Of a stretch of DNA of 64,000 nt, positions 3,024-64,000 are shown in pieces; within the stretch, counting starts at the first letter, position 1, and each line of letters starts with the position of its first letter. The DNA comes from Anniella stebbinsi. Lineage: Eukaryota; Chordata; Lepidosauria; Squamata; Anniellidae. The translations under genes were made by a program, and so were the position numbers. The notes beneath the pieces were generated by a model that saw nothing but the letters and a program-made list of their open reading frames with translations, searched no databases and was not told the DNA's origin. Where the stretch lies: assembly GCA_029215795.1 (NCBI GenBank), contig JARDYH010000004.1, positions 202,596,017 through 202,660,016 of the forward strand, in the 5' to 3' direction.

Positions 3024-6000
3024 CTGGAAAAGAAGTCAATGCAAGTAAGAAGAATGCCAATCTGACAGCAGAGAACCAGCTAACATACATTCGTCATGCT
3101 TTTCGCAGCCCTTGAACAAACATTTCAAAGCAGCAGCATTTTTTTCAATATGGCCATAATTAATAGATCAATTAATTAAAAAGCATTTAAATCTTATTAA
3201 ACCCTTATAAATCAGACACCATCTTAGAAGAGGCATTTCCACTTCTCCCTCATAGGAGAAAATGCCTCTTCTAACTTGGGTCTTCCTCTGATACATCTTC
3301 TTCCACATTGTAAAGCACCATACACAATGATAGCCAAGGAATACACCCAAACTGCAAGCATAAGCCTTCAGGCAAAGTGTAACTCCATCCAGAATAGGTG
3401 GAGTCCCTATTCTCTAACCTGTCTTTTAACTAACCAGGAGCACCCCTGTCATGTCTGGATTAAACTTCAATTTGTTTTCCCTGTTCTGGTGTTATGGTAA
3501 TTGGCGAAGCTCACCACATAAGCTCCTCCCATAGGAGTCTACACATACAGTGAGCAGCAGGGGGACCTTCACAGGTACAGCTGTGTGTGCACTTCCACAC
3601 AACTCGGAACCCTGCATGATCAGGATTCCAAATCACGTGGAAGTCTATGGGAGGAGCTACATGATGTGACATCGGTGGAGGGGGCAGCTAACTCAGCTCA
3701 GCATCATTCCTGCTCACATGGTAAGTTTCATCATTTACTACAGTGCCTGAATAGGGCTCCTAGCTTTCACCTGACCAGCTTCTTAAAGCATGAGAACACA
3801 ATTGTTTAGAATTGATTTAAGGAAACAGCAATATATGATAAATTATAGGAATTAGTGCTGTGCCAAAAAATGTGACCATTCCATTTTCAGCAATTTGAGG
3901 TGGGGTGGAAATGAAAACTCGGGCGAAAGGGCTGGGAAAGGTGAGAATTTCTGATAATTTTCTCCTTGGACAGGTTTTCCACATAAGCTTTTAAATGTAG
4001 CCAATTATTGAGGGGACTTCTTTCTTTCTTTTTATTTTTTTAAAAACACCCCCAGCATTTTCAGAAGCTCAGGAGTTCTTCCTGAATGCTTATTGAAGAG
4101 GGTGAGGTCACGTGATCTCCAATAGGCATTCACTAAGAACGGCTGGGTTCCTCCAAATCCCAAGGGAAGGGGAGTTTGAAAAACTAAAAAATAGGAGGAA
4201 GGCCCCTCAGTCATTGGCGACACTTAAAAAAAAAGGTATGTAGAAGCCCCGTCCCCACCCCCAGAAGAAAATTCTCTGAATTTCCCTTCCTCCACTGCAA
4301 AAAAGGCAGAAAAAACAATGTCTCTCTCGCAGGGAGAGAACGTTCCTGAAAATAAGGTGCAGGATTTGGCTCAGTACTAATAGTAATATTAACTTTTATA
4401 GCTTGCCTTACATTTAAGTACACATTTTGTTATAGTTATATTGCTTTTCCTAATGAATTTACTATATCTTTGTTTTATTATACAAACCTCTGGTCTCTTT
4501 TGTCCTATGTTTATAGCAAGCTACTATAAGAATAAAGGGTAACAATAAATAAAGAATTTACCTTTAATGGAGGCAGTGGTTCTGTAAAAGGAGCAATTCA
4601 GGGGCGGGCAACTTGTAGCTTTCCAGATATTCCGGTCTACAACTTCCATTATCCCTCACCACAGGCCATGATGACTAGGGCTGATAGGAATTGTAGGCCA
4701 AACATCTGGAAGGTCACATGTTGCCCACTCCTGCAATAATTAAAGGTGTATTTTTAATTTTACATTTAACAGTTAATTTAAATTTAATATTTTTAAGGAA
4801 GTGGGGGAGAAGCCACTCCTGACAAGGTGGTGACAGTGATGGGATGATAGGGCCAAGGCGACCCAGTGAGCTTCATGGCTCAGTGGTGATTTGAACCTGG
4901 GTCTTGAACCTAGTCCAAGTCGACCACTGTAACCACTACACCACAATGGCTCTCAATTATCTGACAGGTCGTGTCTGACTCAAAGTGAGGAAGCCAGATT
5001 CCAGCTGGACATCAGGAAAAACTTCCTGTTAGAGCAGTATGACAATGGAACTAATTACCTAGGGAAGCTCCCACACTAGAGACCTTCAGGATGCAGCTGG
5101 ACATTCATCTTTCAGGTATGCTTTAAGGTGGATTCCTGAATTCAACAGAAGGTTGGACTCGATGGCCTCATAGGCCCCTTCCAATTCTACTATTCTATAA
5201 CTCTATGAGGTAAACTCTTGAAAATAGATACCTGTATAGTTCACTGGTATGTTGTCTGACCTAACCCAGGTGAGTTGTGGGGTGGGACTGCCGGTTGCAT
5301 CACAGCGTAGTAGAACATTGCTTCCCAGAGGTGAGGTGATTTTTGTGGCTGAAGTCATTACTGATGGTTTCAAACAGTGTTCCAACTCTGCCCTTTGGAA
5401 CAGGATCCCAGCCAGGCCCTCAGGTCCACTGCAAGCCACAAAAGGGTCCAGAAGCACAACAACAGTATCCACAATCTTGGACAATTCAATTAGCTTGGAT
5501 ATCCGACAATCACAATACCATGGGTTGTCCTGCAAACCTTAAAACAGAAAAATAGTTGAGCTGTAGCCATGCAAGCATTTTGTACTCTTGGCACCTGCTT
5601 TGTACTCTTTTCGTCGCCAGGTGAAGACATTTTTATTCTCCCAGTATTTTAACAGTTAAATTAACTCAATTTTAATCCTTGCTGTTTTAAATTTGTATTT
5701 TAATCTGTATTAATTCCTGTTAATTCCTGCTGCTGGTTTTATTCTGGTTTTATTCTGGTTGTGTTTTTAGATTGTATGTTATTTGTTGTTTTTGGATTGT
5801 GGCTTGTTTTATATTTTTAAAATGATTTTATGGTTTTAATTTTTGTGAACCGCCCAGAGAGCTTCGGCTATAGGGCAGTATAAAAATGCAATAAATAAAT
5901 AAATAAATAAATAGTTAGACCGGGGCCAGCCCAAGACATTTTGCTGTCTGAGACAAAGAACAAGATGGTGCCCTCTCCCATTCCATGTACCAAAGCCAAC

Positions 6001-34200: not shown

Positions 34201-37200
34201 CCTGCTATTGTCTATGTGCCAAAGGGAATGGGAGTAACTATTGGAAAAGTCTGAGTACAACTCACTTGCTATGTTCATTCACCTTCTGTACCCTCTAGTT
34301 TCAACAGGGCTAAACACAATATGCTTTGGCCTTTCAGTTCTACAGTCCAAGTACCTGGCATCCTGTGTAGCCAAATTTCCAGCTTCCGTGCAGATCAGAA
34401 GCCGCGGACATGGGGTAACCAATCCCGCTCACTCCGATGTCGGTAAAAGCCAGGTTAATAATAATTGCATTGGTCGCTGTTCGAAGCTCCTTATATTTAA
34501 CAAAGATGCCTAGTACAACTATGTTACTGAGAAGACTTACAACTCCTGTCAAAAGACCAAAAAGAAAAACTACACAATAAAAAGTATTGATAGTGGCATA
34601 TATTGGCTCAGAAAAATCACATTATTGATCTCAACTCTCCAATGGCCAATTTGAAGTCCCATACCATTTGCAAAGTGGTTTCTAATACACTGAACTCATC
34701 ATAATAAGTTTTTTCTTAACATTTCTACTAAACTTTAAGTGTTAAATTCAATAAAGAATGCATTTATATAAGCATTTTGATGTGAATCATGTTATCATAT
34801 ATGATATATTTGTCACAAATGTTTATACAAAGCTCTTTTTTTTGTTTTGAAAATGGATGTAATTGATAACCAGGTTTTCCTTCTCCCTGACAATGCCTTT
34901 AAAAATCCAGGGGAAAATTGCACAAATTATGCGCATTTTACAAAAATTGCACAAGTTATCCATATTTTAAAATACTGGGCCCCTTGGATTACTGCCATGC
35001 ATTCTATGTGAGGCTGCCTTTAAAAGTGTTTAGAACCCGCAGTTTGTCTTAAACACAATCAAAAGCAATCATGGCCCCTGTATCGTAGGATGAGCAGGAG
35101 CCATCTACCTTTGAACCCATAACAGAATCAAATAGTTGAACAACTGCATCACAGCAGCCCCATTTACAATGGTAAAAAAATATAAAAAATCAACAAAGCA
35201 TCACTAACGTAACACCTGTAATTTTGTCAGAGGAAAAGTTAAGATCTCAAAGAGAGAATTCTCTGCACTTCATCAGACTACAATGCCCTTGAGGAGGGGG
35301 GAGGGCATAAAACCAATTTAAGTTTGTAGTGTAGAATGTAGATAGAGCCTGTGTCTTTCTCCTTCCCCCTTCTCATAAGCCTCCTGCAAACTGTAAAGGT
35401 GTGTGTGTGAGTTTATACACTCCCAACTCCATACATTTATAAAATGTCTGTACACATGGCTCTCTCCATGCTATGAATATCTCTCTTAAAAAAGAAAAAA
35501 AGAAAATCCCATTATAGGTGAGAAAGGATTTAACAGCTGAAGCCCAACTTTGGGCAATATCCCTGAAGTTTGTGCATAAGTGAACTGGATCAGCAGTCCA
35601 CAAAAGTTTATGTTGTGATTTTTTTGGAAAAGTGGTATACAAATAAATAGGAGGGGGAAAATACTTCATAGGTAAATTGATGACCTTGAAAATTGACTTC
35701 ACAGGCAAGTATCAACATGTCAGAGAAAATATTAGGATTGTGGGTTGTAAGGTGGGTTTGGAGTCACCCTTGCTGCACTGTGCACTGCATTCAGATGACA
35801 TGCCAACCCTCACTGCAGCAGAGATACTTATGTAAATAATAGGGGTGTGCACGGACCCCCCGGATCGGATCGGGACCCGGATCGGGACCTCCAATTTTGT
35901 CCCGGACCGGTTCGGACAAAATCGGAGGCCCCCCGGACCGGATCGAGTCCGATCCCGACCCAAAAATCGTACATTTTTGGATCGGCCGCCATTTTTTTCC
36001 CCATAGACTTGCATTGCAATGCAAGTCTATGAGGAAAAAATGGCGGCGGGTGGGTAAGGGGGGGCCTAACTCCCTCCCCCCCCGGGGCCGTCCGCTGTGG
36101 ACGGCCCCGGCAGGTAAACCCCCTCCCCCGCGCTCCCTACCCCCCCTGGGGCCGCCTGCTTCCATCCGCTGGCGCCCGCGGGCGCCAGCGGATAGAAGCG
36201 GACGGCTCCGGGGGGGGGGGTAAGCCCCCTTCCCCGCCACTTACCTTCTCGGCACGTCCGGCGCCGGCGGCTACTACCAGCGGGCTCCGCGGCCTACTCT
36301 CAAGTAGCGCGCCGGGTGATGACATCACCCGGCGCGCCACCCTGGAGCAGGCCGCGGAGCCTGCTGGTAGTAGTAGGCGCCGGCGCCGGACGGGAGCCGC
36401 CGGGCCGGGCAGGTAAGGGCCCCCCTCCCCCCTCCGCGCGCCCCCTCCTCCCCTCCACGCACCCCCTCCTTACCTTTCCGGCCCGGCGGCTCCCGTCCGG
36501 CGCCGGCGCCTACTACTTCCAGCAGGCTCCGCGGCCTGCTCTAGAGTAGCGCGCCGGGTGATGACATCACCCGGCGCGCCATCCTAGAGCAGGCCGCGGA
36601 GCCTGCTGGGAGTAGTAGGCGCCGGCGCCGGACGGGAGCCGCCGGGCCGGAAAGGTAAGGGCCCCCCTCCCCCCTCCGCACGCCCCCTCCTCCCCTCCAC
36701 GCACCCCCTCCTTACCTTTCCGGCCCGGCGGCTCCCGTCCGGCGCCGGCGCCTACTACTTCCAGCAGGCTCCGCGGCCTGCTCTAGAGTAGCGCGCCGGG
36801 TGATGACATCACCCGGCGCGCCATCCTAGAGCAGGCCGCGGAGCCTGCTGGGAATAGTAGGCGCCGGCGCCGGACGGGAGCCGCCGGGCCGGAAAGGTAA
36901 GGGCCCCCCTCCCCCCTCCGCGCGCCCCCTCCTCCCCTCCACGCACCCCCTCCTTACCTTTCCGGCCCGGCGGCTCCCGTCCGGCGCCGGCGCCTACTAC
37001 TTCCAGCAGGCTCCGCGGCCTGCTCTAGAGTAGCGCGCCGGGTGATGACATCACCCGGCGCGCCATCCTAGAGCAGGCCGCGGAGCCTGCTGGGAATAGT
37101 AGGCGCCGGCGCCGGACGGGAGCCGCCGGGCCGGAAAGGTAAGGGCCCCCCTCCCCCCTCCGCGCGCCCCCTCCTCCCCTCCACGCACCCCCTCCTTACC

Positions 37201-40084
37201 TTCCCGGCCCGGTGGCTCCCGTCCGGCGCCGGCGCCTACTACTACCAGCAGGCTCCGCGGCCTGCTCTAGAGTAGCGCGCCGGGTGATGACATCACCCGG
37301 CGCGCCACCCTAGAGCAGGCCGCGGAGCCTGCTAGTAGTAGTAGGCTCCGGCGCCGGACGGGAGCCACCGGGCCGAGAAGGTAAGTGCCCCCCTCCTCCC
37401 CCCCCCCCGCTGTCCACTTTCATCGGCGGGCGCCCGCTGGCGCCCGCCAATGGAAGCGGCGGTGGGCGCCAGTGGGCGCCCGCCGATCCGCCGATCCGCC
37501 GAACCGGTTCGGAGCTTTTTCGGACCGGTTCGGATTGGATCGGCCGATCCAGCTGCGGGATCGGAAATCGGATAATTTATCCGATTTCCCACTGGACCGG
37601 ACTCGGATCGTGGATCGGGTCCGATCCAGTGCACATCCCTAGTAAATAACAGGCATGCATGAGAAAAGCCACAATAGCTCCCCCCGCCCCCCAAGATCAT
37701 TCGAACCTGGACACAGTATTAAAGTGAATCAACAAGGGGTTACAGTCCCATCATTTTCTGAAAATAGCTACTTAACTTTATCAGGGTTTTGTATCTAAGA
37801 CAATAAATTCTGGAGTAAATATAGCATTGATTTCCCCCCTATATATATCCTACTCCTCTTTATTGTAAACTGTTCAGACTATCGGCAGATACAGATCTAT
37901 GTATTCTCATCCTACATTAAGTATTTTAAACAAAACACCAGAAGGTATTTTGTCTTGCAAATTGAGACTAAAACGGTGGTGCAATTAAACAGGAAATTCT
38001 CAAACGTTGCTGGCCCTGTTCAGTTTGAAAGATGAAAGCAATAATGGTTTGAAATGGAGCAGAACACTCTCCACCAGCAGGCGGCAAAGGAACATTAACT
38101 CCTAGATGGTTTGAAATCTATTATAAGTTGTCACATTGCCAATACTTGTCAGTGAGCCTTCACTTAAAAGGAAATTATCTACAAGGAAGTCACCTGCCTT
38201 TAAGAAAACCCTTACTTAATGTATTCTGTAAGACTGATGGAGCAAGACATCTCTCTGATGTTCCCATGATGAAAAGCATCAATACAATCTAGCACCATTC
38301 GGACAGAGTCAAATGATGTTTTCTTGGGGGAAATAAAACTTTAAAAAACTTGAAATGAATCCAATATACCTAACATATAGTTTCAACAAAGACCAACGTA
38401 CATCTTCTCCCAGAATGCTGAATGTTAGTTTGATAATAGAAGGGAAGTTGTGGAAATGAGGGGGGCAGCTCTTGTTACTCCGACCTCTTCTGTTAATTTG
38501 TAGAGATATTTCATGAAACAAAGCTGCCCAAAAGACAGATATGGTCTAGCACAGCCTCCCCGCAACCTGGTGCTCTCCAGATAAGCTGTCCCATTTGGAT
38601 GTGTTGGCCATGCTGATTGGGAATGATGGGAGTTTCAGTCTAATGCATCTGGAGAGCACTAGGTTGGGGAAAGCTGCTCTAGAGGTTTATTTAGAGACCA
38701 ACTGTACAATCCTATGGATGTCTCCTCAGAAGTAACTCCTAATGACCTTCAAAATCTGGCTTATTCCCGGGTAAGAAGGCATAGAATTTCAGCTTAATGG
38801 AGCTTTCATGGGCAACAGCCTACATCGGAAGCAAAACCTCATGCCAACTTCACAATAAATTGGTCAGTCTTTAAGGTAGCAAAGTATTCTGTCTTCTTGC
38901 TTTCACAGGCCACCACCATTATCTGGATTGTCTGGATCAGCACAGCTGATCATTTTCAAAATGTCCTACATATATGCCCTTGAACTCTTGAACTTGATCC
39001 CCAAATCCTTTACGAGTGAAGCATATAACTGAAACAAGAACCTATAGTCTGGGCATTTTCTCCTCTAGCAATTCCAATATCTCCCATAAGATGTACATAG
39101 TACTATATTAGATGGAAGCCAACTATGACAAATCCATGTACACACGCATACAAAGTTATTTTTTTTAAAGAAAAAAAGTTCTGGACATTAACAAGGAAAG
39201 AATGGAGAGTGGGAAATCATAACTATTGAAATAGACAGTAACAACTTGTATTCTTATTCCTTAAGAAAATAGTTCTGATGTTCTCCTGTTTAATGTTTTT
39301 TTGGAAGCCAAATCTACAGAATACAACTCTGCGGCTGGAGCAGAGGCCCCCTATGCCAAGGCAGAGAGCAATGCAAAATGGGAGAGCTATTTCCAAGCTA
39401 TCACACTGTCACAGTCTTTGTTCAGTGAGTTAGGAGAAGACACTTGCTAGGAAGAACAGAACAGATGTCAGGTTGTGAGCCAAAGATATTGCTGTTTATT
39501 CCAGGAAGTTATATCTAAAGGATAAAAGGCTCCCAGAACAATAAAGATCAACACATTCCTTTCTTAATCGCCATCTTTCATGTACGATATCTTTCTTTTG
39601 CATGTTGACTGAAGTTAACATCTCCAAAAGTACAACCCTATGCATTTTAACTTGTTAGTAAGTCCTACTGTGTTCAATAGGGCTTACTTCTAGGTAAGCA
39701 TACATAGGATTGAAACCTAAGAATGTAAGCCTAGTAAACCCCACTGAACTCAATGGGACTTACTTCAGATAAGTGTGCATAGAATTGCAGCAGCCTTACG
39801 GTGCATATTCAGCATTTGAGACTACATCTTTAGATTATAATTTTACAATTTCACATTTGATTTTTCTAAATTTATCTACATTTAAATCAAGCTGAATAAA
39901 TTTTGCTCAATTTTTTGTGCATTGTGTTACGCACAATGCCTCTATTCAACTCCTAAATCCTGTTTTTATTTTTCATACCTGCTGTTATCAAATAAGCTGC
40001 AACTATGTTGTGTTCAGTCTGTGAAAAGGCTGAAGGATGTGCATTGTCACTTTCCGAAGAGTTAGCAGAATCATTCAAAAACAT
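16126..40084 (-). CDS. RRH: RRH, retinal pigment epithelium-derived rhodopsin homolog (peropsin)
   Basis: Coding exons are 40084-39979, 34545-34355, 31355-31256, 28450-28297, 21615-21447, 19365-19187 and 16228-16126. The total is 1002 bp, 333 aa, close to the 337 aa of the human protein. All junctions are AG/GT and every split codon closes. It is a seven-helix opsin. Visible landmarks: conserved Cys in the GYTGCQ segment (about 98), D-R-Y at 122-124, the second disulfide Cys in GAICTVNWR, the retinal Schiff-base lysine in FAKSSTFYNP at residue 284, and NPxxY as NPCIY. Peropsin is expressed in the microvilli of the retinal pigment epithelium and binds all-trans retinal. The start Met was chosen because the residues after it match the short family N-terminus with an Asn-rich glycosylation stretch; the longer in-frame upstream extension does not fit. 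The introns carry many transposons but no exon is broken. Confidence 0.97.
16440..16822 (+). mobile_element. L2/CR1-type LINE 3' end
   Basis: Text of the LINE 3' region ('cttatgaaactccc') leads into 'tagggagtggtatagaaat' and a TAAATAAATAAATA tail. It lies in RRH intron 6. Confidence 0.6.
17571..17735. mobile_element. Degenerate second copy of the CAGTGGAGGCTG MITE
   Basis: It matches 8074-8251 along most of its length ('ggtggtgaatccactccggg', 'gatagctccttt'). The outer ends are worn and no clear TSD is seen. Confidence 0.65.
17870..17960 (-). mobile_element. tRNA/MIR-like SINE fragment
   Basis: The minus strand shows a 'tgctgtagtggttag' head and a box-B-like 'gatttgaatc' motif. A short copy in RRH intron 6. 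Confidence 0.5.
18580..18835. repeat. Unnamed dispersed repeat, copy 2
   Basis: It is colinear with 10700-11025, including 'gggaaagccccacgg' and 'cgcagccaccac' blocks. No TIR or ORF is evident. Confidence 0.5.
19187..19365 (-). CDS. RRH: RRH coding exon 6 (helices 6-7, retinal lysine)
   Basis: The exon opens with ATG TCT in frame after exon 5 and runs to a split Lys codon before GTAAGT. It contains AWSPY of helix 6 and the FAKSSTFYNPCIY segment with the Schiff-base lysine. Confidence 0.97.
20450..20582 (+). mobile_element. L2/CR1-type LINE 3' end
   Basis: It has 'gaaccatccagagagcttc' and a 'ggcaataaatacat' tail. Confidence 0.55.
20640..21015 (+). mobile_element. L2/CR1-type LINE 3' end
   Basis: It has 'ccagactgtggaatggcctg' and 'ctctcttccggcaggc' text typical of a LINE 3' ORF2/UTR region and ends in 'gaaataaatagaaatag'. 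Confidence 0.6.
21447..21615 (-). CDS. RRH: RRH coding exon 5 (helix 5, third cytoplasmic loop)
   Basis: The acceptor TTTTCAG ends at 21616. The exon encodes SFVSYTMSVIAVNFVIPL and the loop ending DWSDQVDVTK before GTATGG. Confidence 0.96.
21801..21816. repeat. L1 target-site duplication, 3' side of element
   Basis: The 16-bp sequence AACTCCCAGCATTCCT is identical to 27630-27645. The two flanks together rebuild a palindromic MITE that the L1 split. Confidence 0.9.
21932..25768 (-). pseudogene. L1 ORF2 (endonuclease and reverse transcriptase), one in-frame stop
   Basis: The N-terminal part (25768-24401) is an apurinic-type endonuclease, with TLNVKGL, FLQETH, GDFNM and SRIDYIF motifs and a coiled region after it. 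A TAG stop at 24403-24401 ends it, and the same frame resumes at once; an internal Met at 24355 opens the next 807 codons. That part holds the reverse-transcriptase motifs TRQGCPLSP and MFADDTLL, then YLGINI, and near the C-terminus the Cys/His cluster C-x3-C-x7-H-x4-C. One nonsense codon is the only disabling change I found. Confidence 0.93.
26013..27050 (-). CDS. L1 ORF1 protein (RNA-binding chaperone)
   Basis: 345 aa. A basic, low-complexity N-terminus is followed by a heptad-rich coiled coil (about 85-165), then an RRM-like domain starting near DRDRRANIRIR and a C-terminal domain with the ERAHRVG motif. This is the usual order of an L1 ORF1 protein, which trimerises and coats L1 RNA. The frame is intact. 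244 bp separate it from ORF2. Confidence 0.92.
   Translation of the reverse strand: MNGGRLMSKKKTTSWSRPKGDRPSDRSYRLVRTDKMSDKDSEKTKKQSPSHAGNASAKTGTKPGAIPKTTTGRQADPTDELIQNIQKMLDLAILKQDGNIEQALLKQEERLAKRITDSQQQLLAGLQKVEKEVGALQEETGELKVLYKKQEEQLTQQDLRLIAMEDRDRRANIRIRSFGERQGETLNSIRELILAWVKQLVPQEDWRMEDIERAHRVGFGKTREFPRDIIVKFANYYKKEKLMQAVRSQGQPTLQATPIEVFQDLCPQTVQWRKSVRICTGALKMKSISYNWGYPVFLRFKWNGKQQRITSCEQGIELLEKLGIMDATPVGEEKQDEGAAGGSND
27630..27675. repeat. L1 target-site duplication (5' side) and rest of split MITE
   Basis: 27630-27645 repeats the 16-bp TSD. The following bases 'gaccattggctatgctaact' continue the palindromic MITE interrupted at 21816. Confidence 0.88.
27673..27912 (+). mobile_element. 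tRNA/MIR-like SINE, nearly complete
   Basis: The head 'gtggtgtagtgactagaatg' resembles a tRNA box A and 'gggttctagtcc' a box B. A conserved core follows ('ctgggtgactttgggccag', 'gttgttgtgaggataaaatg') and it ends in AATAAATAAATAAA. The best copy of this SINE in the window. Confidence 0.75.
28297..28450 (-). CDS. RRH: RRH coding exon 4 (helix 4, second extracellular loop)
   Basis: It starts by completing a Gly codon and encodes LILAAWINAVFWSSMP, then GWASYAPDPTGAICTVNWRK. The donor GTACGT begins at 28296. Confidence 0.96.
28568..29069. mobile_element. hAT-type element with CAGAGGTGTTGA ends
   Basis: The ends CAGAGGTGTTGAC and GTTCAACACCTCTG are complementary. The flanks CTATAAAC and ATATAAAT agree at six of eight positions. 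Inside, a block of about 170 bp (from 28690) recurs in diverged form from 28910. Confidence 0.65.
29286..29424. mobile_element. Palindromic MITE family copy
   Basis: The arms 'cagccttctccaacctggtg' and 'caccaaattggagaaggct' are complementary, with the centre 'ggccagcctgctggtt'. Confidence 0.6.
30414..30732. mobile_element. 319-bp palindromic hAT MITE, same family as 13407
   Basis: It begins TAGGCTGACCATATG and ends CATATGGTCACCCTA. The flanks TGTATCTA and TGTATGTA are an 8-bp duplication with one change. The core matches 13407-13727. Confidence 0.85.
31143..31196 (+). repeat. (ATT)n/(ATC)n microsatellite
   Basis: A run of ATT and ATC triplets in RRH intron 3. Confidence 0.9.
31256..31355 (-). 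CDS. RRH: RRH coding exon 3 (helix 3, DRY motif)
   Basis: 100 bp between TTTCAG and GTATGG. It encodes FFGMASIGLLTVV and the DRY motif, ending with the first base of a Gly codon. Too short for a long ORF; identified by sequence and phase. Confidence 0.95.
31875..32060 (-). mobile_element. tRNA-derived squamate-type SINE fragment
   Basis: The text 'gccattggtccatctagccc' followed by 'ggcagcagctttccag' and a worn 'gagtttgaacttg' box matches a SINE family very common in squamate genomes. Family recognition is from memory. Confidence 0.6.
32230..32350 (+). mobile_element. Short interspersed repeat ('gtagccgtgttagtcc' type)
   Basis: It has 'gtagccgtgttagtccaaga' and 'ccacttcatcagtg', a repeat widespread in reptiles and birds. 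A relative lies at 41190-41290. Confidence 0.6.
32495..32760 (-). mobile_element. SINE copy interrupted by a palindromic MITE
   Basis: The SINE text 'aggctattggtccatctaac' stops at about 32518 and resumes near 32655 ('agcccaatacca', 'gagataacaggacttgaac'). The MITE at about 32519-32654 lies between, so the MITE inserted into the SINE. Confidence 0.55.
32519..32654. mobile_element. Palindromic MITE family copy, nested in SINE
   Basis: The arms 'ctccccaacctggcgtcctcc' and 'ggagggcatgaggttggggaa' are complementary in parts. The surrounding SINE continues on both sides. Confidence 0.55.
32870..33262 (+). mobile_element. L2/CR1-type LINE 3' end
   Basis: It contains 'ggttccaggtgaagagcttt' and 'tagccacccagagaactgg', and ends in 'taaataaataataaa'. 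In RRH intron 2. Confidence 0.6.
33476..33501 (+). repeat. (CA)n microsatellite
   Basis: About twelve CA dinucleotides. Confidence 0.95.
34355..34545 (-). CDS. RRH: RRH coding exon 2 (helices 1-2, first loop)
   Basis: The acceptor GACAG ends at 34546 and the donor GTACTT begins at 34354. The exon encodes SNIVVLGIFVKYKELRTATN, NAIIINLAFTDIG and the WKFGYTGCQ segment with the disulfide cysteine. Confidence 0.97.
34960..35120 (+). pseudogene. L2-like LINE reverse-transcriptase fragment
   Basis: The plus strand reads L-D-Y-C-H followed by a short L-P-L-K stretch, matching the L2-type 'LDYCN..Y.GLP' motif. A second fragment is at 42790-42990. Confidence 0.5.
35840..37641. mobile_element. 1.8-kb GC-rich hAT-type element with hairpin array
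   Basis: It runs from TAGGGGTGTGCAC to GTGCACATCCCTA, with perfect 8-bp duplications GTAAATAA at 35832-35839 and 37642-37649. There is no transposase ORF, so it is non-autonomous. The outer parts are rich in CGGAT/CCGAT motifs. The middle holds five copies of a 242-bp unit (centres at 36322, 36564, 36806, 37048, 37290), each an inverted repeat. It lies in RRH intron 1 and is the most CpG-dense DNA in the window. ORFs in it are by-products of base composition. Confidence 0.9.
36246..37385. repeat. Tandem array of 242-bp GC-rich hairpin units
   Basis: The spacing of the centre GATGACATC is 242 bp in every case. Each centre is flanked by 15-bp arms GCGCGCCGGGTGATG and complement, then by longer arms including CTCCGCGGCCTGCT and GGCGCCGGCGCC. 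The units are nearly identical, with single-base differences. Confidence 0.9.
38549..38682. mobile_element. Palindromic MITE family copy
   Basis: The arms 'cgcaacctggtgctctccag' and 'ctggagagcactaggttggg' are complementary. In RRH intron 1. Confidence 0.6.
39630..39795. repeat. Two head-to-tail copies of a short dispersed repeat
   Basis: Two copies of the 'agtaagtcc..caatgggacttac..ataggattg' motif. Related copies are at 11600-11700, 42985-43065, 48230-48300, 51120-51190 and 51880-51960. Common in reptile DNA; no name assigned. Confidence 0.6.
39979..40084 (-). CDS. RRH: RRH coding exon 1 (N-terminus)
   Basis: It starts at the Met of MFLNDSANSSES, an Asn/Ser-rich extracellular N-terminus, then FSQTEHNIVAAYLITAG. 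The donor GTATGA begins at 39978. Confidence 0.92.
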
Positions 40085-52730: not shown

Positions 52731-52994
52731 CTTTACCGCCCAGAAAGCGGGCAGAAGCAACTACTAAGCTTGCAATTCCTCTTGCGTTTTCAGCTCAGGC
52801 TCAGATAGGTTGAGCACAGGACCCAGAGGTAGGAACAACCCCTCAGAAAACAGGTGCTGGGAAGTGGAGGGAAGTCTTTAGTTGAAGAAAACCAGTCATC
52901 CCTCAGCCTGCTCCTTTTCTGCCTCTGCAGCAGGAAAGGGTGGAAAGGTTGCTGTTTACTGTTTACTGCTTGATTGCCTCTCCTTCCTAACAAT

Positions 52995-53170
52995 GGCCTC
53001 CTCCACACGGGGCGTTTAATGAGCCTTGAAGGCTCATTATAAATTTTACCTACACACGAGCGGAGCGCAAAACGGGCGTAGAGGCGCGTTATCTCCCGGA
53101 TTATGCGCATTATCGAATGCGCGTTAAATAGCGACTTTTATTTTGCGGCGGGATGTAAAGCGCGTTATGA
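52995..53170 (+). repeat. Terminal and subterminal region of the Harbinger-like element
   Basis: It is about 95% identical by eye to 59242-59395 up to 'gacttttattttgc', where the two diverge. It carries several GCGC[A/G]TTA-type motifs, for example GCGCGTTATC, TGCGCATTATC and GCGCGTTAAA, likely binding sites for element proteins. Confidence 0.75.
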
Positions 53171-53475: not shown

Positions 53476-56400
53476 ATGGCTGCTCCAGGAAGGGGAGTTT
53501 CTTGGAAAAAGGCAGAGATTCTCGACCTTCTGGACATTTTTGGGGAGCAGAAAGTTCAAGCTCAACTGAATGCCAGCCATAGGAACCTCGATGCCTATGA
53601 ATCCATTGCTCAGGAAATGCAAAGAAGGGGCCATATCCGTACAGCGAAGGAGTGCAGGACGAAGGCAAAGGCAATGAGGCAGGAATATCGCAGGGTCGTG
53701 AATCATAATTCACGATCAGGAAATGATGCTGCCACCTGCCCCTTTTTTGAGGAGCTTCATAGCATTTTTCGGGGGGATGCTACTATTCAACCAAATCGCG
53801 TGGGCAGGAGTCTGAACATCCATCGTGTCCAAGCACCTGCTGCTGCTCCCCCAGTAAGTTCCCCCCTGGCTTTCCCGCTCTCAGAAGGCTCAGAAGAACT
53901 GTTCAGCAGTGAACTTCAAACAATAGATGTGGAGGACTACCTTGGAACGCCCTACTCTCCCGGAGGTACATTGATTGTAATTGCCATTTTTTAAAAAATC
54001 TCGTTCTTCCTTCTATTTCATGCCTATAGCTCACATCTGATGTTTTCCCCTTTTAGAATTGGAGACACCAGAAGATATTGGAAACGAAGAACCTGAAGGT
54101 ATAGACTGTTTCTTTTGTTGGGTTGGGAAGACTCTTAACTTTACAACTTAATATTGTGTTCCATGGAATAAAAAATTGTATTCTAAAATGGGGCAGGCAG
54201 ATGCGGGTGAGCGGGTGGGGCAGGAGAGGGCAGGAGAGATCTCCTCTAGCTACCCAGCGTTTCTCTGGTCTCTCCAGGGCGGGGGGGAAAAAGGATAAGG
54301 GGCAGGCAGCCATTTTGAACAACCACCCCCATTTCAAAAGGAGGGAGGTTTGTGATTGTGCCTATTGATGAAACCTCCTAAAAGCTCTTCTTTTTCTGCC
54401 ACGGCAGGAGCCTACAGAAGCAGCAGTACCACCAGTGCATCGGAATCCATTGAGCAAGCAGATTTGAGGGCCAGAAATCTCCAGCAGCATCCTGCAGCAG
54501 CAGCACCGAGTAAGTACAGGCCTAGCTAATTTCTGAGGTCAGACATCATGGAAGGAAGGGAGTTCCCAATGATCTAGGCTGGGTTTATGGGGGGGGGAGG
54601 GGGAAAGGGGGGCATTGGACACAACATTGTGGTGCATGGGACCAGAAATTGTGGTCTATGGGAGGGATTCCCGCCTTTTTCTCTACAGCAGTTAAAGTTA
54701 CATGAGCCCTGACCTCCTTTTCATGTGGTCAGCCTAGGCAGGCAGCCATTTTGAACACACAAACAACCCCCCCCCTATTTAAAATGGAGGTTTGTGATTG
54801 TGCCTATTGGAATGAAACCTCCTAATAGCTCTTCTTTTTCTTCCACGGCAGCCTACAGAAGCAGCAGTACCACCAGTGTGTCAGAAACCAGTGAGCACGC
54901 AGATTTGAGGGCCAGAAATCTCCAGCAGCATCCTGCAGCAGCACCGAGTAAGTATAGGGCTATGTCAATGAAACCTCCTAAAAGCTCATCTTTTTCTGCC
55001 ATGGCAGGAGCCTCCAGAAGCAGCGGTACCACCAGTGCGTCAGAAACCAGTGAGCATGCAGATTTGAGGGCCAGAAATCTCCAGCAGCATCCTGCACCAG
55101 CACCACCGTGTAAGTACTGGGCTAATTTCTGGGGTGCATGGGACCAGAAATTGTGGTCTATGGGAGGGATTTCAGCCTTTTTCTCTACAGCACTTAAAGT
55201 TACATGAGCCCTGACCTCCTTTTCATGTGGTCACTGTAGTATACTGCCTGCAACTTTAACTGTGGTGATGAAGAGGGAATTTCACCAGGTGCTGCATGCA
55301 TACAAACGGCACCGGCTGAAATTCCTTTTTCTCTACAGCACTTAAAGTTACATGAGCCCTGACCTCCTTTTCATGTGGTCAGCCCTGACCTCCTTTTCAT
55401 GTGGTCAGCCTAGGCAGGCAGCCATTTTGAACACACAAACAACCCCCCCCTATTTAAAATGGAGGTTTGTGATTGTGCCTATTGGAATGAAACCTCCTAA
55501 TAGCTCTTCTTTTTCTTCCACGGCAGCCTACAGAAGCAGCGGTTCCACCAGTGCGTCGGAAACCAGTGACCACGCAGATTTGAGGGCCAGAAATCTCCAG
55601 CAGCATCCTGCACCAGCACCACCGTGTAAGTACTGGGCTAATTTCTGGGGTGCATGGGACCAGAAATTGTGGTCTATGGGAGGGATTTCAGCCTTTTTCT
55701 CTACAGCACTTAAAGTTACATGAGCCCTGACCTCCTTTTCATGTGGTCACTGTAGTATACTGCCTGCAACTTTAACTGTGGTGATGAAGAGGGAATTTCA
55801 CCAGGTGCTGCATGCATACAAACGGCACCGGCTGAAATTCCTTTTTCTCTACAGCACTTAAAGTTACATGAGCCCTGACCTCCTTTTCATGTGGTCAGCC
55901 CTGACCTCCTTTTCATGTGGTCAGCCTAGGCAGGCAGCCATTTTGAACACACAAACAACCCCCCCCTATTTAAAATGGAGGTTTGTGATTGTGCCTATTG
56001 GAATGAAACCTCCTAATAGCTCTTCTTTTTCTTCCACGGCAGCCTACAGAAGCAGCGGTTCCACCAGTGCGTCGGAAACCAGTGACCACGCAGATTTGAG
56101 GGCCAGAAATCTCCAGCAGCATCCTGCACCAGCACCACCGTGTAAGTACTGGGCTAATTTCTGGGGTGCATGGGACCAGAAATTGTGGTCTATGGGAGGG
56201 ATTTCAGCCTTTTTCTCTACAGCACTTAAAGTTACATGAGCCCTGACCTCCTTTTCATGTGGTCACTGTAGTATACTGCCTGCAACTTTAACTGTGGTGA
56301 TGAAGAGGGAATTTCACCAGGTGCTGCATGCATACAAACGGCACCGGCTGAAATTCCTTTTTCTCTACAGCACTTAAAGTTACATGAGCCCTGACCTCCT

Positions 56401-59276
56401 TTTCATGTGGTCAGCCCTGACCTCCTTTTCATGTGGTCAGCCTAGGCAGGCAGCCATTTTGAACACACAAACAACCCCCCCCTATTTAAAATGGAGGTTT
56501 GTGATTGTGCCTATTGGAATGAAACCTCCTAATAGCTCTTCTTTTTCTTCCACGGCAGCCTACAGAAGCAGCGGTTCCACCAGTGCGTCGGAAACCAGTG
56601 ACCACGCAGATTTGAGGGCCAGAAATCTCCAGCAGCATCCTGCACCAGCACCACCGTGTAAGTACTGGGCTAATTTCTGGGGTGCATGGGACCAGAAATT
56701 GTGGTCTATGGGAGGGATTTCAGCCTTTTTCTCTACAGCACTTAAAGTTACATGAGCCCTGACCTCCTTTTCATGTGGTCACTGTAGTATACTGCCTGCA
56801 ACTTTAACTGTGGTGATGAAGAGGGAATTTCACCAGGTGCTGCATGCATACAAACGGCACCGGCTGAAATTCCTTTTTCTCTACAGCACTTAAAGTTACA
56901 TGAGCCCTGACCTCCTTTTCATGTGGTCAGCCCTGACCTCCTTTTCATGTGGTCAGCCTAGGCAGGCAGCCATTTTGAACACACAAACAACCCCCCCCTA
57001 TTTAAAATGGAGGTTTGTGATTGTGCCTATTGGAATGAAACCTCCTAATAGCTCTTCTTTTTCTTCCACGGCAGCCTACAGAAGCAGCGGTTCCACCAGT
57101 GCGTCGGAAACCAGTGACCACGCAGATTTGAGGGCCAGAAATCTCCAGCAGCATCCTGCACCAGCACCACCGTGTAAGTACTGGGCTAATTTCTGGGGTG
57201 CATGGGACCAGAAATTGTGGTCTATGGGAGGGATTTCAGCCTTTTTCTCTACAGCACTTAAAGTTACATGAGCCCTGACCTCCTTTTCATGTGGTCACTG
57301 TAGTATACTGCCTGCAACTTTAACTGTGGTGATGAAGAGGGAATTTCACCAGGTGCTGCATGCATACAAACGGCACCGGCTGAAATTCCTTTTTCTCTAC
57401 AGCACTTAAAGTTACATGAGCCCTGACCTCCTTTTCATGTGGTCAGCCCTGACCTCCTTTTCATGTGGTCAGCCTAGGCAGGCAGCCATTTTGAACACAC
57501 AAACAACCCCCCCTATTTAAAATGGAGGTTTGTGATTGTGCCTATTGGAATGAAACCTCCTAATAGCTCTTCTTTTTCTTCCACGGCAGCCTACAGAAGC
57601 AGCGGTTCCACCAGTGCGTCGGAAACCAGTGACCACGCAGATTTGAGGGCCAGAAATCTCCAGCAGCATCCTGCACCAGCACCACCGTGTAAGTACTGGG
57701 CTAATTTCTGGGGTGCATGGGACCAGAAATTGTGGTCTATGGGAGGGATTTCAGCCTTTTTCTCTACAGCACTTAAAGTTACATGAGCCCTGACCTCCTT
57801 TTCATGTGGTCACTGTAGTATACTGCCTGCAACTTTAACTGTGGTGATGAAGAGGGAATTTCACCAGGTGCTGCATGCATACAAACGGCACCGGCTGAAA
57901 TTCCTTTTTCTCTACAGCACTTAAAGTTACATGAGCCCTGACCTCCTTTTCATGTGGTCAGCCCTGACCTCCTTTTCATGTGGTCAGCCTAGGCAGGCAG
58001 CCATTTTGAACACACAAACAACCCCCCCCTATTTAAAATGGAGGTTTGTGATTGTGCCTATTGGAATGAAACCTCCTAATAGCTCTTCTTTTTCTTCCAC
58101 GGCAGCCTACAGAAGCAGCGGTTCCACCAGTGCGTCGGAAACCAGTGACCACGCAGATTTGAGGGCCAGAAATCTCCAGCAGCATCCTGCACCAGCACCA
58201 CCGTGTAAGTACTGGGCTAATTTCTGGGGTGCATGGGACCAGAAATTGTGGTCTATGGGAGGGATTTCAGCCTTTTTCTCTACAGCACTTAAAGTTACAT
58301 GAGCCCTGACCTCCTTTTCATGTGGTCACTGTAGTATACTGCCTGCAACTTTAACTGTGGTGATGAAGAGGGAATTTCACCAGGTGCTGCATGCATACAA
58401 ACGGCACCGGCTGAAATTCCTTTTTCTCTACAGCACTTAAAGTTACATGAGCCCTGACCTCCTTTTCATGTGGTCAGCCCTGACCTCCTTTTCATGTGGT
58501 CAGCCTAGGCAGGCAGCCATTTTGAACACACAAACAACCCCCCCCTATTTAAAATGGAGGTTTGTGATTGTGCCTATTGGAATGAAACCTCCTAATAGCT
58601 CTTCTTTTTCTTCCACGGCAGCCTACAGAAGCAGCGGTTACACCAGTGCGTCGGAAACCAGTGACCACGCAGATTTGAGGGCCAGAAATCTCCAGCAGCA
58701 TCCTGCAGCAGGAGCGAGTAAGTACAGCCGATGTTATTTGCTTGATAAAGTTTCAGTCCTGCAATTCTTATAAATGTGTGAAAGGACATTCTCATCTTCA
58801 GGATGAGGGTGCGAGAGAACCCATGGTACAGGCTGGACATGTAATAAATGATTTTTAAACACACTAAACTTTGCCCTTTCCCTTCAGGTACAGATGAAGG
58901 AAGGAGACATCCCATCCAAAAGTCAGCACTCTCGCCTGCAACGCGCCTGGAAATGGCCAGAAACAGAAGACCCCCACGCAGCAGGGACACAGACCGCATT
59001 CTGGAGCATGCCTCTGCACACAACGCAAACCTCTTGCAGATGCATGAGCAGATGTTGCAGAAAAATGACCAGATGTTGGACTATTTGAAAACAGAAGATG
59101 CAAGGGACCAAAGAAATCAAGATGCCCTTCTCAGAATTCTAGAAAGACAATGTGTCACGATGGAGAAGCTGGTGACGGTGGTGCAACAGGAAGAACCGGG
59201 AAGATCAACCCATACAGCCAACCCATCATCTACTAGCCATGGGCCTCCTCCACACGGGGCGTTTAATGAGCCTTGA
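53476..59276 (+). CDS. Myb/SANT-like protein of Harbinger-like element, with ten repeated exons
   Basis: Predicted coding exons: 53476-53965, 54057-54098, ten repeats (54408-54509, 54852-54947, 55008-55109, 55527-55625, 56043-56141, 56559-56657, 57075-57173, 57590-57688, 58106-58204, 58622-58717) and 58888-59276. The sum is 1911 bp, 636 aa, with every junction AG/GT and every intron in phase 1. Residues about 8-105 form a Myb/SANT-like DNA-binding domain (VSWKKAEILDLLDIFGE, ECRTKAKAMRQEYRRV, CPFFEELHSIFRG). Next come about 330 residues of Ser/Thr- and Ala/Pro-rich repeats, then a coiled coil (NLLQMHEQMLQKNDQML to about the end). Such proteins are thought to help a Harbinger transposase bind ends and enter the nucleus. 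The last codons (from Gly of S-H-G on) come from an inserted MITE. Not proven expressed; usage of all ten exons is inference. Confidence 0.7.
54408..58717 (+). repeat. Tandem exon array (10 copies; seven in 516-bp units)
   Basis: Copies 4-10 start at 55527, 56043, 56559, 57075, 57590, 58106 and 58622, a period of 516 bp (515 once, by loss of one C in a C run). Copies 1-3 are spaced unevenly and more diverged. Exon lengths are 102, 96, 102, six of 99, and 96, all multiples of three. Each copy is preceded by a long pyrimidine tract ending GGCAG and followed by GTAAGT. The unit also holds a piece of the hAT MITE family of 13407 ('gaagagggaatttcaccagg'). Copies 4-7 are identical over their whole conceptual ORFs. 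Confidence 0.95.
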
Positions 59277-59596
59277 AGGCTCATTATAAATTTTACCTAC
59301 ACACGAGCGGAGCGCAAAACGGGCGTACAGGCGCGTTATCTCCCCGATAATGCGCATTTTCGAACGCGCGTTAAATAGCGACTTTTATTTTGCTCCGGCC
59401 GTTAAAGCGCATTTTCGCTGTGTGAACAAGCGATTATGCGCATTAACTACCTGTAAAGTGCTTTTTGGGCATCTTTTAATGCGCTTCGCCGCTTCTCGCC
59501 GCCTCCCGTGCAGAGGGATTAGGCGTAAATGCGCCTCCGCGAAAATGCGCATAATCCCCGAACCGGGCGCAAAAGCGCATCCTTGTGGAGGGGGCC
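59242..59596. mobile_element. 355-bp Harbinger-type MITE inserted in the Myb/SANT gene
   Basis: The ends are GGCCTCCTCCACAC and its near-complement (TTGTGGAGGGGGCC), flanked by ATG at 59239-59241 and 59597-59599. A 3-bp duplication fits PIF/Harbinger. The left 150 bp match the terminus at 52995. It has no gene of its own and is full of GCGCATTA-type motifs. Confidence 0.85.
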
Positions 59597-59598
59597 AT

Positions 59599-59925
59599 GG
59601 AAAACGCCAGCCAATAAAAAGACGGTTGGCTATTGACAGTATGGAGGGGACCAGCTCTAAGCCAAATGACTTAGGTGGGAACTCAGGAGAGGGTGAGGGG
59701 AGAAAATGCCTGGCTAAGAAGAAACGTAAAGTCAGGGTGCAACACCCCCAGTCTGCCCAGTTGCAAAATCCCCAGAATGACATTTTAACCAAAGACTTGG
59801 ACGAATCACTGCTCCCGTGCTCCCATACAGTACCCCCACAGCGCTCATCATCACCACTTCAAGGTGAGCCAAGCATAAAGCGCACGGCACGGGAGGTAAA
59901 AAAACCCTTAAAGTTCTCCCCTTAG
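59599..59925 (+). pseudogene. Displaced C-terminal tail of the Myb/SANT gene
   Basis: Reading across the MITE in the same frame, an open stretch of 108 codons continues and ends in TAA/TAG-type stop at 59923-59925. It is rich in Lys and Ser, and includes the basic cluster AKKKRKVRV, an SV40-type nuclear-localisation motif. It is cut off from the upstream frame by the stop inside the MITE. It could also be a separate exon with a donor near 59862 (AAGGTGAGC). Confidence 0.65.
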
Positions 59926-59949
59926 AATACATGATTTATGTTATTGTTA

Positions 59950-60200
59950 ATAATTTGCTGTTAATTATGGTTTTTTTTGCTGTTATTTATGTAATTGTTA
60001 TGTTATTTGCTGTTAATTATGGTTTTTTTTGCTGTTATTTATGTAATTGTTATGTTATTTGCTGTTAATTATGGTATTTTTTGCTGTTATTTATGTAATT
60101 GTTATGTTATTTGCTGTTAATTATGGTATTTTTTGCTGTTATTTATGTAATTGTTATGTTATTTGCTGTTAATTATGGTATTTTTTGCTGTTATTTATGT
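59950..60200 (+). repeat. 52-bp AT-rich tandem repeat, about five units
   Basis: TTAATTATGG recurs at 59961, 60013, 60065, 60117 and 60169, exactly 52 bp apart. The unit also contains TGCTGTTATTTATG. Confidence 0.95.
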
Positions 60201-60415: not shown

Positions 60416-62038
60416 TTACAATTTATTGAGGATACGGTCTAGCTTGTCCTCAATGGAGGACATGCGATTCTGCATGCCTCCAACGGCTTCCTCAAGCCTC
60501 TCCAGCCGCTCCTGAGTGGGAACTGCATGGGATGGTAAGAAAAAAAAAGTGTTTAAAATCATATAATATAACCAACAGAAAAACAGTTCAAGATGTACCA
60601 CTCAATGACATTGGCTATTCAATGCGATTCAATTTACAGGAATGTAAATATAGTTTTTCATTTTTTAATTAAAAATTTAAACCATTAGTCCTGTACTGTA
60701 CAATAGGGTGACCACATAAAATCCAGGTCGGTTAAACTGTTGTGATGAAGAGGGGATTTCACCAGGAACTAATTGCATACAAATGACACTGGCTGAAATT
60801 CCCTTTTCTCTACAACTGTTACAGATACAGGAGCCCTGACCTGGATTTTATATGCTCAATGTACTCTACATTATACAAAGCAATGGAACTTCTATTACCT
60901 GCTGGAGACACAGCAGCAGGTGAGACAGGTGGGGGTGCATTCTCCTCTTCCTCCTCTTCCTGCACCTCCTCCTCCACCTCCTCCGCAGACGGTGATGGCG
61001 ATGGACTGAGTATCCCTTCAAAATTGGAAAAAAAATGTTATTTTAAGTTTCTATCATGGTGTTCCCCGCCTCGATCCGTTGGGAGAGTCTATTAATTAAT
61101 AAATAAATACATATATCATTACAATTATTAATATTAATAATATTATTAAAGTACGCTGGGCAAAAATAGTATTCCTAATTAATCTGGCTTGCATTTAACT
61201 TACGTGCCCTTCTGCGGAGGGTCATCCGAGGAGGAGAAGGAGGAGAAGGAGGAGGAGGAGAAGTCCCCCCAACCTCCTCCACTTCGGGAGACGGAGCCGC
61301 CTCTTCCGCCCTCCTGTTTTGGGCTAAGAAAAAGAGGGAAGGGAAAAAGGGAAATAACATTAAAATGTGGAAGGGTCCCTGAAGGGCATCTAGTCCCACC
61401 CCAAGATGAATGCTGGAATCCACCTTAAAGCCTCATTGTGTCAGGGGTCATAGTTTTTGGGGCTTCCCCCCCCCCCAACCTGCACATCCACCAGAGAATA
61501 CACAATGAGCAGTGGGCAGAATCACCAGCACACAGGGCTCCTGAAGGGCATCTAGTCCCACCCCACCCAAGATGTATGCTGGAATCCACCTTAAAGCCTC
61601 ATTGTGTCAGGGGTCATAGTTTTTGGGGCTTCCCCCCCCCAACCTGCACATCCACCAGAGAATACACAATGAGCAGTGGGCAGAATGGTAATGCACTCAC
61701 TCACCTGCGGTCAGCCTCTCCTCAGGGGTTGGTCTCCCCGCCTTCCGCCACAGCTCGCGGAATTCCACGAAGTAGGGTGGACGCTGTCGGAAGGGGGGAT
61801 GCTCCCCATGGGCACTAATGGCCCGGAAAAAAGCCGCTTTCACATACTTGAACTTCGTCCTGCACTGCAGGGCAGTGCGGACGAAGTTTTGCTGGCGCAG
61901 AGCAGCAGCCGCCCTCCTAAACAGCCTCATAGTCGGGAGGCTGCTGCTCCTGACAATCCTTCCAACGAGGGAGGATTGGAGGAGGAAGGCCAATAATATG
62001 CGGACCTCCGCATCCCCCCAATACCTCCCTCTAGGCAT
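60416..62038 (-). CDS. Second Myb-like, coiled-coil protein of Harbinger-like element
   Basis: Predicted exons are 62038-61705, 61323-61204, 61015-60899 and 60522-60416. They total 678 bp, 225 aa, all AG/GT and phase 1. Residues about 5-105 form a Myb/SANT-like domain (YWGDAEVRILLAFL, QCRTKFKYVKAAF), then a Pro/Ser and Glu-rich acidic linker, and a C-terminal coiled coil (RLERLEEAVGGMQNRM, SSIEDKLDRILNKL). The layout parallels the plus-strand Myb gene: DNA-binding domain, disordered linker, coiled coil. Function is inferred from family and context. Confidence 0.72.
60704..60863. mobile_element. Shortened hAT MITE of the TAGGGTGACCA family
   Basis: It starts TAGGGTGACCACATAAAATCC and ends with a worn complement. 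The inner block 'gaagaggggatttcaccagg' matches 13407-13727. The flanks CTGTACAA and CTCTACAT agree at six of eight positions. It lies in an intron of the second Myb gene. Confidence 0.65.
61376..61680. repeat. Direct duplication of about 165 bp in intron 1 of second Myb gene
   Basis: The block 'cctgaagggcatctagtccc' to 'agaatacacaatgagcagtg' occurs at about 61378-61515 and again at about 61541-61680. Confidence 0.85.
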
Positions 62039-62213: not shown

Positions 62214-62790
62214 TTTGGGTGTCCTGAACTGAAAACTTGAGAATGTTAGTGACTAATTGTACTATGTTATTCTCAAAAAAACAACCCTGTGAGGTAGGCA
62301 TGGATGGGCTGTGGTCCTGTTACTTGCCCTTCTGCAATGTTCACTGTACTGCATATGTGTGTTGGGTTACCTGAAGTCTTATTGTCTAGGAATACTACTA
62401 TCAACATTGTTTGAAAGTTGTAGGAACATATTTTATTTAGGATAAGCATTTTTAAAATAAGCACTTTTTAATATGGCAACAACAATTTTGGGTGTCCTGA
62501 ATGTACCTTTGGGTGTCCTGAACTGAAAACCTGAGAATGTTAGTGACTATATTGTACTATGTTATTCTCAAAAAAACAACCCTGTGAGGTAGGCATGGAT
62601 GGGCTGTGGTCCTGTTACTTGCCCTTCTGCAATGTTCACTGTACTGCATATGTGTGTTGGGTTACCTGAAGTCTTATTGTCTAGGAATACTACTATCAAC
62701 ATTGTTTGAAAGTTGTAGGAACATATTTTATTTAGGATAAGCATTTTTAAAATAAGCACTTTTTAATATGGCAACAACAATATGGCAATA
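62214..62790. repeat. 295-bp direct tandem duplication
   Basis: 'gaatgttagtgactaattgt' and 200+ following bases recur 295 bp later, almost unchanged (62273 and 62568 start equivalent frames). The conceptual 63-residue ORFs are identical, so the duplication is young. Confidence 0.93.
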
Positions 62791-63588: not shown

Positions 63589-64000
63589 CTAGGGGTTCTG
63601 CCCACGCAGAGACCAAAGCATGCCTCTTAAGGCATCTCTGACCTTTTCCCCAGCAGCCTTTTCTTGAATTTCCTCATGCCCCATTGGCAGCGGGGCACCC
63701 AGGGTTGCCAGTTCAATTTGCCTTGCTTCGTGGAGATCCAATGCAACATCATGTCCTTGACTTTCACAAATGTTGTGTAGAATGACACAGGCAGATATCA
63801 CAGAAATGACGTTTTCTTCAGCGAGTTCTATCCTGGACGACAGGCATCTCCACCGTGCTTTTAACCTTCCAAAGGCACATTCAACAACATTCCTCGCCCG
63901 TGACAGACAGTGGTTGAAATGTTGCTTTTGCTGGTCCAGGGCTCCGCCGTAAGGTTTCATCAGCCACTTCCGAATGGGGTAAGCGGAATCAGCCACCACC
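63589..64000 (-). CDS. HARBI1-like DDE transposase, C-terminal part
   Basis: The frame is open to the window edge; no ATG is seen at its start (the codon there is GTG), so the gene continues beyond 64000. It shows ADSAYP, the segment of the second catalytic Asp in HARBI1-type (DDE_Tnp_4) nucleases, and NVVECAFGRLKARWR, which carries the catalytic Glu. VISACVILHNICE is the usual helix after it. The protein ends in a 50-residue variable tail. It would cut and join element ends with the help of a Myb-like partner. No disabling change is visible. Confidence 0.9.
   Translation of the reverse strand, partial: VVADSAYPIRKWLMKPYGGALDQQKQHFNHCLSRARNVVECAFGRLKARWRCLSSRIELAEENVISVISACVILHNICESQGHDVALDLHEARQIELATLGAPLPMGHEEIQEKAAGEKVRDALRGMLWSLRGQNP

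Follow-up and report, generated by a model that had tools for sequence, protein, structure and literature searches.

How does a transposon gene come to carry the same exon ten times over, and does the number of copies matter to the protein it encodes? This question is raised by a 64,000-nt stretch of DNA from the lizard Anniella stebbinsi (GenBank assembly GCA_029215795.1, contig JARDYH010000004.1, positions 202,596,017 to 202,660,016 of the forward strand), which was analyzed at its full length and is referred to here as the window. A PIF/Harbinger-type transposon lies at the right of the window, and its first Myb/SANT gene contains a tandem array of repeat exons between a DNA-binding domain and a predicted C-terminal helix. 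Our central finding is that units of this array have recently been gained and lost as whole exons, with the reading frame kept. We consider it likely that the element is a young Harbinger-type transposon with an unstable exon array in its accessory Myb/SANT gene, the array constituting a coding variable-number tandem repeat (VNTR) made of whole exons.

A tandem array of repeat exons

An original prediction, made from the letters of the sequence, had described ten in-frame exons with intact splice sites and phase 1 at both ends. The exon map of the gene, given below, and the frame that results from joining its exons bear this out, and the coordinates first given for the array (54408-58717) hold.

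53476-53965, + strand: exon 1, Myb/SANT DNA-binding domain (Pfam Myb_DNA-bind_4, E 4.4e-19), phase 1 donor
54057-54098, + strand: exon 2, acidic linker, 42 nt, phase 1-1, assigned from splice sites and frame
54408-54509, + strand: repeat exon type A, 102 nt
54852-54947, + strand: repeat exon type B, 96 nt
55008-55109, + strand: repeat exon type C, 102 nt
55527-55625, 56043-56141, 56559-56657, 57075-57173, 57590-57688 and 58106-58204, + strand: six identical repeat exons type D, 99 nt each, in 516-bp units
58622-58717, + strand: repeat exon type E, 96 nt
58888-59276, + strand: last exon, with an SPATRL motif and a predicted long helix; its frame stops inside a nested insert

Exon 1, exon 2, the ten repeat exons and the last exon join into an open frame of 637 codons, stop included, and all introns of the gene are phase 1. 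Each repeat exon is 96, 99 or 102 nt long and has a GTAAGT donor and phase 1 at both ends (10/10); an AG acceptor is likewise found in all ten, in the context CACGGCAG in nine and CATGGCAG in the tenth. The statement that every copy keeps these sites is thus true, but the independence of the copies was overstated, since the array holds five distinct types (A-E) and the six D exons are identical clones with identical introns. The units are free of substitutions relative to one another, both in the six D exons and in all seven introns that run from the third to the tenth repeat exon. The array has a spacing of 516 bp (515 bp once), and one base missing from one intron is the sole difference seen between D units. 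A reading as ten independently conserved exons was rejected on these grounds.

Two features of the introns may be recorded here. Exons B and C are separated by an intron (54948-55007) that is 60 nt long and open in frame, so that its retention would add 20 residues and no stop. The intron of each 516-bp unit contains a hairpin (55249-55352 and its copies) with 44-nt arms that are 75% complementary, and which by eye looks like a stretch at about 60740-60860; it may be a small non-autonomous element that the unit had acquired before it expanded.

If spliced as predicted, the product would consist of the DNA-binding domain, a linker with 31-34 residues for each of its n repeat units, and the C-terminal helix. 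A single-sequence model of the last exon predicted one helix of 69 residues (residues 32-100; mean predicted local distance difference test score, pLDDT, 83), and a Pfam search of that exon gave no match above the curated cut-off. The modeled helix fits the coiled coil that had been proposed for this end of the protein, although compatibility is no proof of a coiled coil. Thirteen relatives match the Myb domain at 36-53% identity, and the 12 with a given name come from squamates. These proteins (Rhineura, Podarcis, Eublepharis and other geckos) share with the lizard element the Myb domain and, in nine of the 13, the SPATRL motif, and their tails are charged and helix-like by eye; unlike the lizard element, none of the 13 carries the LRARN/LQQHP repeat. 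When the repeat region by itself was used as a protein query, none of the 7,994 candidates scored matched at E ≤ 1, in agreement with the original prediction, to which no described Harbinger protein of this layout was known.

Exon number among copies of the element

The last exon is present at 100% identity in at least 40 places of the 1.89-Gb genome (228 candidates, 40 scored). Repeat exons were counted by BLAST (E 1e-3, at which more decayed exons would escape) in 29 arrays, namely that of the window and those of 28 other elements, each available in full from exon 2 through the last exon. Eighteen of the 28 came from 20 stretches picked among the 40 listed places with an identical last exon; L042 (order D-A-B-C-E) and L059 are uncounted, as exon 2 lies outside the stretch. 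Five further elements (L062-L066) were picked for unusually long or short spans, and another five (L067-L071) were taken from matches to a spliced 300-nt query. The sample is non-random and skewed to young copies.

Exon number in the 29 complete arrays was four (7 arrays), five (16), six (4), eight (1) or ten (1, the window), and the order A-B-C-D-E was found in 15. The proposal of length variation by exon duplication stands insofar as copies differ by whole exons in frame; ten exons, though, are not the state of the family, for which five is most common. Including nine partial elements, and excluding L003, which overlaps L004, 191 exons were sampled. Every one of the 191 is free of stops, has a length that is a multiple of three, and is flanked by an AG acceptor and a GTAAGT donor. 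Unit number therefore differs between dispersed copies (4-10 exons) with the frame kept, as in a coding VNTR. Other expansions were also encountered: D is doubled in L041, L048 and L068, with units of 490, 815 and 519 bp, respectively, and L063 carries a duplicated block, B-C-D, of about 1.8 kb.

The expansion in the window is of recent date. At the left (5') end, L046 and L047 agree with the window at 1,406 of 1,406 bp, so that 1.4 kb is shared without substitutions, yet these two copies have five exons and a single D. It follows that the expansion is recent and specific to the element, and that the array is unstable. Among the matches listed (40 of 851 candidates scored), a 601-bp query spanning a D-D junction gave serial matches in the window only, with one full-length match each at C5:59.4 Mb, C4:32.9 Mb, C1:297.5 Mb and C5:3.3 Mb. 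As far as seen, then, the D expansion is specific to the window element.

We propose that the starting point was a five-type A-B-C-D-E array, probably the original state of young copies, in a young, multi-copy PIF/Harbinger-type transposon of about 10 kb. Recent tandem duplication would then have brought the exon-plus-intron unit D to six copies, whether by unequal exchange between near-identical units or by replication slippage between them. With phase-1 introns throughout and exchange at homologous positions, any number of units would remain in frame, and selection would not be needed to keep it so. Splicing, translation and dimerization, as well as the near-neutrality of length change itself, are what we infer from the sequence. 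Copies of one transposon could, on this basis, encode DNA-binding proteins that differ in linker length.

Constraint and competing explanations

The reading frame of exon 1 is open in 19 of 19 copies. Among these copies 2 of its 490 sites are variable, both synonymous, versus 13 of 400 in introns 1 and 2 (Fisher p 0.0011), and in the same alignment 6 of the 102 sites of exon A vary. The dN/dS-type check that had been recommended across the repeats gave no sign of purifying selection: variants within types comprise 17 nonsynonymous and 5 synonymous changes (neutral expectation 74.5%, p 1.0), of which part probably arose by conversion between types. These counts suggest constraint on the Myb exon but not on the repeats.

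Several results weigh against this interpretation and against the explanation of the array as a coding VNTR. The exon 1 contrast owes much to a small number of more divergent copies, and leaving out L048, L050, L053 and L058 weakens it to 1/490 versus 5/400 (p 0.10). The 191 intact exons carry little evidential weight, coming from copies that are young and mostly selected for near-identity. The reference sequences of types A to E share a 39-nt core of the repeat without any difference, synonymous positions included, whereas the 47 nt 5' of it differ at 11 columns (p 0.0008); this contrast hints at some constraint, or conversion, within the repeat. Finally, all matches listed for the spliced 300-nt query (40 of 676 candidates scored) are exon-bounded, so that no retrocopy backs the splice junctions. 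The constant core, GCAGATTTGAGGGCCAGAAATCTCCAGCAGCATCCTGCA, makes up the 3' half of the exon in types A-E, with variation in the 5' half, and a splicing enhancer or a conversion tract is possible there.

The exon number might be functional, with lengths selected as linker length tunes how a Myb dimer or multimer spans the transposon ends, or aids escape from host repression. A protein in which a linker joins the DNA-binding domain to a predicted long helix would suit such a role, as would the in-frame length classes of 4-10 exons among young copies and the core shared between types. In mouse L1 ORF1, moreover, the multimerization region changes fast, and its authors were tempted by an adaptive reading (PMC3600994; this and the other published accounts cited here are represented by excerpts, to which our statements about them are confined). 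We nevertheless think selection on exon number unlikely. The repeats vary like neutral sequence, five exons are the commonest state (16/29), the longest array is in a damaged copy, and length change in frame is automatic.

The same identity of the core, extending as it does to synonymous sites, could instead reflect a role of the array as DNA or RNA, such as a spacer, an array of binding sites or a splicing element, whose exons are not all translated; the repeat region has no match among the proteins scored and the module is absent from 13 of 13 squamate relatives. Such a role appears quite improbable, given that frame, donor and acceptor are kept in 191 of 191 exons, that the distance from exon A to exon B is found with every residue modulo 3 (12, 9 and 5 of 26 copies), and that the joined frame is open for 637 codons. 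As for the six D units being a misassembly of a shorter array, units identical save for one intron base are what such an error could give, but that base also sets one unit apart, and the expansions with other unit sizes in L041, L048, L063 and L068 indicate that expansions are real in the family. We regard an artifact of this kind as very improbable. A coding VNTR of whole exons thus remains the explanation that we prefer.

It is a more tentative proposition, and a doubtful one, that whole-exon duplication serves this transposon as a generator of length, placing 4-10 linker modules between shared DNA-binding and multimerizing ends within one genome. If true, linker length would evolve stepwise and faster than by point mutation, and could track a host repressor or the spacing of transposon ends. 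The Myb-like protein of Harbinger elements has been described as binding DNA in or adjoining the transposon ends and as a partner of the transposase in entry into the nucleus (PMC9179366, PMC9710019), so that a longer linker could conceivably alter multimer reach. The accessory protein has been described as required and as less studied than the transposase. Near-identical transposon copies that differ in the count of one protein module form a natural series, with which one genome can address both the speed at which an exon array grows and shrinks and the effect of linker length on Harbinger transposition.

The host transposon and its relatives

The first Myb/SANT gene belongs to an element that extends 2,661 bp past the window end into the right flank, L039. 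Its remaining features are as follows.

52995-66661 (right end = L039:2661), no strand assigned: PIF/Harbinger-type transposon, 13,667 bp, delimited by inverted ends and target duplication
59242-59596, + strand: nested non-autonomous element, 355 bp, with ends as in the host element and target duplication ATG
59600-59925, + strand: basic tail containing KKKRKV, once the 3' portion of the last exon, severed from the gene in the window copy
62038-61705, 61323-61204, 61015-60899 and 60522-60416, - strand: second, converging Myb/SANT gene, from splice sites and frame
63592-64000, - strand: DDE transposase, 3' part (Pfam DDE_Tnp_4), the remainder at L039:939-1995

The transposon begins with GGCCTCCTCCACACGG at 52995 and finishes at 66661 with GGCCCCCTCCACAAGG, an imperfect inverse, and is flanked by the target duplication AAT (52992-52994 and 66662-66664). 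About 16 bp of the ends align well by eye (14/16 identical), compared with the 25-50 bp usual in the superfamily. A 3-bp target duplication was found at all four sites examined: AAT at the window element, GAG at the element made up of L047 and L060, and ATG and TAA at the nested elements. Only TAA fits the TWA target rule of PIF/Harbinger sensu stricto, whereas AAT, GAG and ATG do not, on four sites in all. Two pieces of the transposase match PF13359 (DDE_Tnp_4) at 51.8 and 65.9 bits (cut-off 24.8). At E ≤ 1e-30 the transposase has 344 relatives; among the best 120 of these, identity reaches 57%, Elgaria, Rhineura and other reptiles are represented, and several are named HARBI1. The DDE_Tnp_4 transposase, the Myb/SANT accessory gene and the 3-bp target duplication of the PIF/Harbinger (PHIS) superfamily are all present, and together with the inverted ends they support the original assignment of the gene to a Harbinger-type transposon. 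A domesticated host gene was rejected, the gene being multi-copy and accompanied by inverted ends and target duplications.

The window copy is damaged. The 355-bp nested element truncates the first Myb/SANT gene and removes its end, and a second nested element of 913 bp (64026-64938), with similar ends and target duplication TAA, splits the transposase. None of the 30 other copies examined has the smaller insert, and position 59596, once considered as the transposon end, was rejected as such and is the end of this insert. The last exon of L060 and L061 runs unbroken into the basic tail, whose KKKRKV may be a nuclear-localization signal. These two right halves differ in that the transposase is uninterrupted in L060 and interrupted in L061. 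L047 and L060 together represent an intact-looking sister copy with both ends, the GAG duplication and an unbroken transposase, about 9.9 kb long by coordinates. The second Myb/SANT gene has four exons, each single (Pfam Myb_DNA-bind_4, E 6.9e-9).

In its DDE_Tnp_4 domain, Myb/SANT gene, inverted ends and 3-bp duplication the lizard element resembles the teleost Harbinger (PMC9179366) and NuwaI/NuwaII (PMC4482050). A candidate autonomous PIF/Harbinger element measures about 4.1 kb (PMC4482050), against about 9.9 kb for the lizard element without nested inserts (L047/L060). The latter also differs in having two Myb/SANT genes and a transposase rather than two open reading frames (ORFs), and in its repeated coding exons; its target duplications AAT, GAG, ATG and TAA match no single motif quoted in the excerpts (PMC9179366, PMC4482050). 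As a side observation, the two Myb/SANT genes are different genes in one element, where the excerpted Harbinger descriptions give one (PMC9179366, PMC4482050). Harbinger-Snek of sea kraits, compared by description only, is likewise a squamate Harbinger expansion, with short non-autonomous variants, and the excerpt mentions no exon array (PMC8437027). We found no published description of a Harbinger gene with repeated exons among the titles and abstract openings listed in a search that covered the subscription literature thinly. From the literature looked at, whole-exon repeats in a DNA transposon appear to be new; the PIF/Harbinger superfamily itself is known.

Among transposon proteins, the nearest precedent found for a repeat of variable length is mouse LINE-1 ORF1, in which repeat number changes in frame between families within a region that determines multimerization (PMC3600994). 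Those repeats measure 42-66 bp, lie inside a retrotransposon ORF1 and number one to four units (PMC3600994). The lizard element differs in repeating whole exons with their introns and in being a DNA transposon. The kringle IV type 2 VNTR of LPA (PMC11462820) also resembles the present case. Each LPA unit presumably contains whole exons, but LPA is a host gene with allelic variation, whereas the lizard variation lies between dispersed transposon copies.

Further tandem arrays are found inside the transposon at 59934-60200 (52-bp unit, 5.2 copies) and 62214-62781 (295-bp unit, 1.9 copies), and BLAST pieces from other copies suggest that their unit number varies too. Outside the transposon, the window contains a G+C-rich tandem array of a 242-bp unit (4.7 copies; 36255-37401). 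An ORF adjoining it (37332-37700, - strand) recurs on the opposite strand in the transposase insert of L061 (about 5270-5599) and seems to belong to another mobile repeat.
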